Source: Candidatus Parcubacteria bacterium
GTDB taxonomy: Bacteria > Patescibacteriota > Minisyncoccia > Phycocordibacterales > CAIJYI01
Reading direction: 5' to 3'
Assembly: GCA_026395595.1 (NCBI GenBank)
Contig: JAPLYL010000001.1
Span: forward strand, 70,174 to 115,516
DNA: 45,343 nt
Made by a program: the position numbers and the translations under genes. Of this stretch, positions 16,774 through 17,510 are shown piece by piece (position 1 is the stretch's first letter; every line of letters begins with the position of its first letter). The notes beneath the pieces are model-generated. The model had not been told where the DNA came from and searched no databases. It saw nothing but the letters and a program-made list of their open reading frames with translations.

Positions 16774-17259
16774 TCAAACAAAGTATTCTTTTAATTTCTT
16801 TGTACTTTCTCTTATCTTTATCAATTCAAATTCATTGGAATATTCTTCTTTCGCAAAATCCATTATCTTCATGACATTATTAACTTTTCTTTTATACTCA
16901 AACATCCATGAGTGCCAAGGAAACATCCAAACATGAAAATGAGACGAGGAGCTTGGTTCTTCTTGAACGATAGTTATTTCGTCAATTCCCAATTTTTCTT
17001 TCATCGCCCTCCTGCATTTAATTAAAAAACGACAGAGGTCTGTTTGTTCGGCATCTGTAAATTCCAGAATAGATTTAACATGTCTTTTAGACGCGATAAT
17101 TACAAACCCTTCTATCGGATATTCAAAATCTTGTTCAGCAACAAAATATTCAGTTTCTGCGATTCTTTCGACAGGCAAAGAAACCTCTCCACTCTGAATT
17201 GAACAAGCGATACAATCAATATTATGTTCTGTTCCTGATATATCTTTTATCGTGACCAT
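16774..17259 (-). CDS. HIT-like protein (diadenosine polyphosphate hydrolase type)
   Basis: 161 aa. An N-terminal segment with two Cys (HNIDCIACSI) is typical of HIT proteins with a zinc site. GFVIIASKRHVKSILEFTD fits the HIT substrate-binding region, and SSHFHVWMFPWH is the HIT triad region. Its pattern is H-x-H-x-W, with the third His replaced by Trp. The catalytic middle His appears kept. The ATG at 17259 is preferred; longer readings run into the tRNA genes. Confidence 0.75.
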   Translation of the reverse strand: MVTIKDISGTEHNIDCIACSIQSGEVSLPVERIAETEYFVAEQDFEYPIEGFVIIASKRHVKSILEFTDAEQTDLCRFLIKCRRAMKEKLGIDEITIVQEEPSSSSHFHVWMFPWHSWMFEYKRKVNNVMKIMDFAKEEYSNEFELIKIRESTKKLKEYFV

Positions 17260-17347
17260 AATCGTGACTTTCAGCTTTAAATTTTTAATCTTCGTTGGTG
17301 CCCTCGGCAGGAATCGAACCTGCATCAGCTCGCCCCGTTATAAATTG

Positions 17348-17419
17348 TCCTCTTGGCAGGAATCGGACCTGCATCAGCTCGTTAGGAGTGAGCTATTCTA
17401 TCCATTGAACTACAAGAGG
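17348..17419 (-). tRNA. tRNA-Arg (CCU), nested inside another tRNA-like gene
   Basis: Acceptor CCTCTTG/CAAGAGG; D-stem GTTC/GAAT; anticodon loop CTCCTAA with CCT; T-arm GCAGG-TCCGATT-CCTGC; discriminator A; no CCA. There is an A-C mismatch at the last anticodon-stem pair (31-39). All parts needed for a functional tRNA are present. Confidence 0.88.
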
Positions 17420-17445
17420 AAAATTTATAACAGGGTGAGCTATTC

Positions 17446-17481
17446 CCCACCCGACTGAACGACATCAGTCGTTCGGGCGGG
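17446..17481 (-). repeat. 36-nt GC-rich hairpin inserted in the outer tRNA D-loop
   Basis: CCCGCCC pairs with GGGTGGG and GAACGAC with GTCGTTC around loop TGAT. It lies exactly between D-loop position 21 and D-stem position 22 as judged from the inner tRNA. Confidence 0.75.
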
Positions 17482-17510
17482 TATCCATTGAACTACGAAG
17501 GCAGACGACG

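Follow-up and report, generated by a model that had tools for sequence, protein, structure and literature searches.

Genes for tRNAs that are interrupted by introns, split or permuted are known. The locus described here raises a further question: when one tRNA gene is lodged in the anticodon arm of another, which of the two decodes, where did the insert come from, and why is the interrupted gene kept? The locus lies in a stretch of 45,343 nucleotides (contig JAPLYL010000001.1, positions 70,174 to 115,516), referred to as the window, from a Candidatus Parcubacteria bacterium whose genome assembly, G000, comprises 979 kb and is 91% complete. The bacterium belongs to the Patescibacteria, a phylum of very small cells, most of which have not been cultured. 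The preliminary description of the locus knew of no bacterial case of this form, and our search of the open-access literature, a scope beyond which most subscription journals and bioRxiv lie, likewise yielded no account of bacterial tRNA genes that contain other tRNA genes.

Results

A tRNA-Arg(CCU) gene interrupts a tRNA-Arg body

Read on the minus strand, positions 17502-17299 spell out one tRNA-Arg body with two interruptions, a hairpin in the D-loop and an insert in the anticodon arm (Table 1). The outer body spans 17502 to 17300, with the discriminator at 17299 and an encoded CCA at 17298-17296. Its acceptor strands GCCUUCG/CGAGGGC form all seven pairs, the D-stem is GUUC/GAAU, the anticodon stem GCUCA/CGAGC contains one A.C, and the T-arm GCAGG-UUCGAUU-CCUGC is followed by A73 and the CCA. 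The 36-nt hairpin enters the outer D-loop after AUGGAUA, and the insert sits at the 3' end of the anticodon loop. We took as nested a whole tRNA lying between two halves with pairing acceptor strands; the window halves pair at 7/7 positions, and the long helix between leader and trailer that characterizes nests is present with 14 bp.

Table 1 Features of the nested locus in the window and of a triple nest in another genome. G001 and G002 are two other species of the genus of G000.
Feature	Position	Strand	Remarks
Outer acceptor 5' strand, GCCUUCG	17496..17502	-	7/7 with 17300-17306; same in G002; shared ancestry with G001 acceptor
Outer positions 8-9, D-stem 5' strand and D-loop (UAGUUCAAUGGAUA)	17482..17495	-	Equals inner D-arm and G001
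Palindromic hairpin, 36 nt, CCCGCCCGAACG...CGGGUGGG, in outer D-loop	17446..17481	-	Mobile palindrome family
Outer D-stem 3' strand (GAAU), A26, anticodon stem 5' strand (GCUCA)	17436..17445	-	
14-bp helix, 5' arm (CCCUGUUAUAAAUU), in place of anticodon loop	17422..17435	-	Pairs with 17333-17346
Inner leader UU, two nt	17420..17421	-	First base paired with A73
Inner tRNA-Arg, anticodon CCU, acceptor CCUCUUG/CAAGAGG, no encoded CCA	17348..17419	-	ARAGORN; Rfam RF00005, 59.1 bits
Inner trailer and helix 3' arm (CAAUUUAUAACGGGG)	17333..17347	-	12/14 against TIR consensus TCCCGTTAGAAATT, reverse-complemented
Outer 3' half: anticodon stem 3' strand, variable region, T-arm, acceptor CGAGGGC, discriminator A	17299..17332	-	
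Encoded CCA 3' of outer acceptor	17296..17298	-	G002 outer 3' end is ACACTA instead
Triple nested tRNA-Ile(UAU), decay rising outwards	L358 (G283:C7, about 1934-2300)		

The preliminary description had placed the nest at 17299-17502 with its outer stems and T-arm, and had drawn a 14-bp helix topped by a full tRNA-Arg(CCU); the complete outer acceptor on the minus strand and the inner call by ARAGORN and Rfam (59 bits) agree with this. Its account of the outer layout was right about the stems and the helix and overlooked the D-loop hairpin (17481-17446). It had also stated that the outer RNA has no anticodon loop of its own. Indeed, no residues are left between GCUCA and the helix in the window, and precise removal of the insert would not restore a 7-nt anticodon loop, whereas it would do so in some other nests.

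The minus-strand RNA has a predicted folding energy of -98.1 kcal/mol (z = -9.1), and none of 200 shuffled sequences was equally stable. The predicted fold contains both acceptors and both T-arms, outer and inner, as well as the hairpin and the long helix; the inner D and anticodon arms deviate somewhat from the cloverleaf. Predictions for unmodified tRNA commonly miss the exact cloverleaf arms. Downstream of the nest lies a gene for a HIT-like protein (no Pfam match), whose longest frame, 16774-17325 on the minus strand, begins within the outer 3' half (17299-17325); a start near 17260 is more likely.

Applied to the nest, ARAGORN and Rfam detected the inner tRNA-Arg(CCU) alone (17419-17348), and ARAGORN with its intron option likewise reported inner tRNAs only and no outer ones. 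Because gene finders report just the inner tRNA, this class of nest is invisible in annotation. The tRNA-Arg genes found elsewhere in G000 carry the anticodons CCG, UCG and UCU, so the inner gene is the sole CCU gene found, although at 91% completeness a second tRNA-Arg(CCU) could be missing from the assembly. Judged from the sequence, these observations support the inner tRNA-Arg(CCU) as the likely decoding copy, next to an outer RNA that has no anticodon loop.

The ancestral gene is the outer body, which is conserved

We compared the locus with two other species of the genus, G001 and G002 (Ca. Nomurabacteria bacterium Ike-200m-9). In G001, the syntenic locus, flanked by folD and a glutaredoxin-like gene, holds just one plain tRNA-Arg(CCU), whose acceptor, GCCCCCG/CGAGGGC, is close to the outer acceptor of the window. 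The inner tRNA has the same core as the outer one and a different acceptor. Since the plain tRNA of G001 has the outer-like acceptor, the gene originally present was the outer body, into which the inner tRNA was inserted. A foreign tRNA lodged in an unrelated host tRNA was considered and is ruled out for the window, as G001 and the shared core point to one ancestral tRNA-Arg(CCU). G002, in turn, carries the same nest at the syntenic place. It keeps seven loop residues (CUCGUAA) ahead of the insert, which have been lost in G000. An exact 20-mer scan of genome contigs returned seven matches, among which Ike-200m-9 is the only known nest carrier; the remaining ones (Chlorobiaceae, Acidimicrobiales, Verrucomicrobia) are probably due to chance.

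Synteny between G000 and G002 extends across the window at about 83% nucleotide identity, and their fourfold sites, 716 of 1307 identical (55%), are near saturation. At this distance the inner tRNA is unchanged (73/73), and five ordinary tRNAs of the window are 99-100% identical, with tRNA-Tyr as the exception (85%, aligned over only 55 of its 84 nt). Of the 65 positions of the outer body, 3 have changed (binomial 3e-13), and the outer 3' half (17299..17332) shows three substitutions. To control for conversion, we restricted the comparison to segments absent from the inner tRNA, namely the outer acceptor, the arms and the D-loop hairpin. These show 1 change in 14 positions, 3 in 30 and 2 in 37 aligned positions, respectively, or 6 in 81 when pooled (93% identity; binomial 8e-14). 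Conversion from the inner copy alone thus cannot explain the conservation of the shell. Within the 14-bp helix, G002 differs from the window by a double change from U-A to C-G and by a U.G turned into C-G. G002 also has defects in its outer tRNA, a C2.A71 in the acceptor and one mismatch in the T-stem. Because the outer-specific segments and the helix pairing stay conserved at near-saturated fourfold divergence, the outer shell is maintained, if imperfectly, though unable to decode.

These comparisons bear on several earlier proposals. Loss of the outer arms in relatives, which the preliminary description had named as the mark of a decaying duplicate, was not found in G002, where the arms are conserved; chance and an assembly error are excluded by the same nest at a syntenic locus in this independent genome; and the nested layout that was to be sought in related genomes occurs in G002 and, as described below, across the order and the phylum. 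The outer tRNA is no odd host for a foreign one, being the ancestral tRNA-Arg(CCU) gene that is still plain in G001. The suggestion that the outer RNA serves as a source of tRNA halves gained no support.

Nested tRNA genes recur across the order and the phylum

The census covered Patescibacteria, together with a scan of viral contigs. We searched for two T-arms 24-54 nt apart, the first belonging to a tRNA and the second to an orphan tRNA 3' half, a spacing too short for tandem tRNAs. This pattern occurs in 30 of 397 genomes of the order and, in a slightly stricter form, in 23 of 380 genomes of the phylum, with no match for the reversed control in either set. A 5' strand upstream of the inner tRNA pairs with the orphan acceptor strand at 15 of 29 loci in the order and 13 of 20 in the phylum, against expectations of 3.1 and 1.5 (maxima 7 and 5) with partners swapped between loci. 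Pooled, this amounts to 28 of the 49 loci examined versus about 4.6 by shuffling, an excess partly expected from ancestry as the loci were chosen by their orphan T-arm. The helix between leader and trailer, which played no part in selecting nests, is far stronger for nested tRNAs than for 133 other tRNAs (median -18.7 versus -6.7 kcal/mol, P = 2.5e-9).

Dissection of the nests revealed the isotypes Arg, Ile, Val, Gly, Ala, Asn and others. A break between nucleotides 35 and 36 is seen in several of the outer loops, as in CUUC|UAA (Arg UCU, three families), CUUA|UAY (Ile UAU), UUCC|CAA (Gly) and UUCA|CAC (Val). Inner and outer acceptors are identical in L100, L108, L110 and L146, where, by sequence, the copy looks recent and local. 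Overall, inner and outer tRNAs diverge by 37% in the acceptor, 11% in the D-arm and 17% in the T-arm, and acceptors that have diverged from each other keep their self-pairing.

The viral contigs served as a control. They contain 102 orphan T-arms near tRNAs, with only two convincingly nested cases, and a loose pairing test gave 5 against 2.8 expected by shuffling. Since orphan T-arms near tRNAs are common in viral contigs, a match to the T-arm pattern does not by itself establish nesting. One viral nest, L195:4973-5123 (IMGVR_UViG_3300018430_000106), has a whole tRNA-Phe placed directly, with no intervening helix, in the anticodon loop (CUU|CUAA) of a tRNA-Arg(UCU) that is intact, forms perfect outer stems and has an encoded CCA. 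The other, L167:4996-5145 (IMGVR_UViG_3300007177_000055), holds a tRNA-Ile(GAU) within a different tRNA with intact acceptor, anticodon and T stems.

Nests within nests decay from the outside in

Repeated nesting of the tRNA-Ile(UAU) gene occurs in one genus of the order. In the triple nest of G283, the outermost layer is a decayed remnant, whereas the middle tRNA and the innermost tRNA-Ile(UAU) are both intact. G057 and G125 share a locus, identified by its downstream gene, at which the outer tRNA is intact in G057 and decayed in G125, with the inner tRNA intact in both. Such decay of the layers from the outside in agrees with what serial replacement predicts. Since the shell decays in G125 and carries mismatches in G002, any shielding by it would not always be needed.

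A structured element of about 75 nt (AUAAUGAC..CGAGGAGC-hairpin-GUCCGAG..GUCAUUAU) precedes inner tRNA-Ile(UAU) genes, sometimes in tandem (L107, L108, L350-L361; also L364, L368, L355), and also adjoins orphan 3' halves of tRNA-Pro and tRNA-Ile. It has no match in Rfam.

The insert and the D-loop hairpin resemble mobile elements

Members of the palindrome family that includes the D-loop hairpin occur in 47 of 397 genomes of the order, with up to 15 copies per genome and no match for the reversed-pattern control; most copies lie outside tRNAs. In three other genomes of the order (L055, L060, L061), complete tRNA-Arg genes are closely preceded by partial tRNA-Arg copies in which this hairpin occupies the identical D-loop position.

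The helix arms of the window match the terminal inverted repeat (TIR) TCCCGTTAGAAATT at 12 and 11 of 14 positions, and the exact TIR is found at L105, L120 and L375. The corresponding MITE-like family (TIR TCCCGTTAGAAAT, 99-130 bp) occurs in 47 of 357 genomes of the order (L369-L398), and 15 of the 26 copies read are flanked by 4-bp direct repeats, often TGAA or TTCA. Three copies bear a tRNA (L105, L120, L375). At 105-114 bp they are the same size as ordinary copies, and all of them lie within tRNA anticodon arms with outer-tRNA flanks. No matching 4-bp target-site duplication of the CCCGTTAG family was found in the flanks of the nests in the window, G002, L105, L120 or L375. The window insert, about 110 bp, consists of the arms and the tRNA only; an integrase gene and direct repeats at its ends are absent. 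At L375:1464-1672, a nested tRNA-Ala(CGC), the outer T-loop bears a further palindrome (TGCCTGCCGGCAGGCAGG).

With an imperfect arm match and no target duplication at the tRNA-bearing copies, the insert may or may not have arrived as a unit. The tRNA may have entered as part of a transposed, tRNA-bearing unit, or gap repair may have copied a sister tRNA into a MITE already residing in the gene, which would explain why inner and outer isotypes agree. An aborted gap repair or a composite event could yield the same product. A MITE cannot be the whole story, because nests of Ile(UAU) and Arg(UCU) contain different inserts.

Discussion

We consider it probable that an inverted-repeat, MITE-like insert with a working copy broke the resident tRNA-Arg(CCU) gene, that the copy now decodes, and that the old gene persists as an RNA shell. 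An insert with the complete same tRNA in its interior would have entered the anticodon loop of the resident gene, destroying it and rescuing the cell in one stroke. From a single transcript, the inner tRNA would be cut out by ordinary end-processing with RNase P and a 3' nuclease. The outer acceptor and the long helix, whose pairing both the sequence and its conservation support, would hold the leftover halves together, and halves so paired may be kept from competing or pairing with the near-identical halves of the inner tRNA, that is, the shell may shield its replacement. The shell also acquired the mobile D-loop hairpin and, in G000, lost its anticodon loop. A broader version is plausible but tentative: in Patescibacteria, self-rescuing invaders with inverted repeats may insert into the anticodon loops of tRNA genes, supply a working copy of the tRNA they disrupt and, by re-invasion, build Russian-doll genes in which the displaced tRNA is selected as a folding shell.

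The conservation of the outer halves could be read in other ways. If they were an inert, decaying leftover, and the inner tRNA alone mattered, one would expect what is seen in the lost loop of G000, the outer mismatches of G002, and the decayed outer layers of G125 and G283 around intact inner copies. We nevertheless regard this as unlikely, given that the outer-specific segments are 93% identical between species against 55% at fourfold sites, that the helix shows paired changes, and that outer acceptors have diverged from the inner ones yet remain self-paired. A constraint on the DNA rather than the RNA, with the outer halves and inverted repeats acting as a substrate for recombination or transposition, or with gene conversion between the copies, would fit the likeness of the arms to transposon ends, the mobile palindrome in the D-loop and the near-identical inner and outer cores. 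Its prospects are poorer, as the outer acceptor strands lie outside both the inserts and the shared core and are still conserved at 13 of 14 positions, and the difference between inner and outer acceptors speaks against conversion across them. Misjoined repeats do occur in metagenome assemblies, but an assembly or binning artefact has a negligible chance of being right in view of an independent species with the nest at a syntenic locus, paired differences between the two, and dozens of other nests.

The outer tRNA might also be a product, with the inner tRNA and its arms removed as an intron and the outer halves ligated into a second tRNA. At other loci, many outer tRNAs retain every stem, and precise removal would leave them a correct 7-nt loop; loops such as CUUC|UAA, CUUA|UAY and UUCC|CAA are split between 35 and 36; and in two viral contigs a tRNA sits directly, without arms, in the loop of an intact outer tRNA. 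In the window, by contrast, the anticodon loop is gone, and in G002 the loop, the T-stem and the acceptor are mutated. RNase P and RNase Z cuts would not remove the arms. The ligases RtcB (PF01139) and T4-type RNA_ligase (PF09414) were found in none of 20 genomes tested (19 chosen around nests plus relatives; G000, G001 and G002 included), compared with 9 and 6 of 14 control genomes, respectively. Rfam covariance models gave no group I intron match in the window, nor in 20 nested loci at E up to 1, and a permissive Rfam search for ribozymes in the Ile(UAU) inserts returned only tRNA and chance matches, for example to antisense Plastid-ycf2 and microRNA models. We therefore hold a spliced second product to be very improbable as an account of the locus; splicing of the outer tRNA is unlikely in G000 and possible in species with intact outer loops and in the two viral contigs.

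The nests matter in several respects. A whole tRNA gene within the anticodon loop of another constitutes a class for which we found no description, spread over many genera of a large bacterial phylum and several isotypes, with one locus three deep. Nesting may offer an element a simple route to strike an essential gene without cost, by breaking and replacing it at once. It also makes a testable claim, namely that a broken copy may be retained to aid the folding of its replacement.

The nearest described case comes from archaea, where the intron of a tRNA-Trp gene houses a box C/D RNA (reviewed in PMC4090602). It resembles the nest in having a functional RNA inside the intron of a tRNA gene, and differs in that the nested RNA is a guide RNA instead of a tRNA and the outer tRNA is spliced. 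Bacterial tRNA genes with group I introns share the insertion into the anticodon loop, whereas the window insert has no group I match, is too short, contains a whole tRNA and leaves a loop that cannot be restored. Archaeal split, permuted and BHB-intron tRNAs likewise have halves joined by a helix on the anticodon side; in the nest, which is bacterial, a single transcript unit contains both halves with an entire second tRNA between them, and RtcB is absent (20 genomes). MITEs and REP-like palindromes have short terminal inverted repeats, here CCCGTTA-AAAT, which the arms of the insert match imperfectly, and this MITE-like family makes 4-bp target duplications elsewhere, but the nest insert carries what appears to be a functional tRNA, and tRNA-bearing copies lie inside tRNA loops with no visible target duplication. 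Integrative elements that target tRNA genes also bring tRNA sequence with them and leave the host unharmed, and repeated rounds leave displaced fragments behind. The nest insert differs from these elements in being about 110 bp long and geneless, with a complete tRNA inside, and in leaving the resident gene split on both sides and unrestored.
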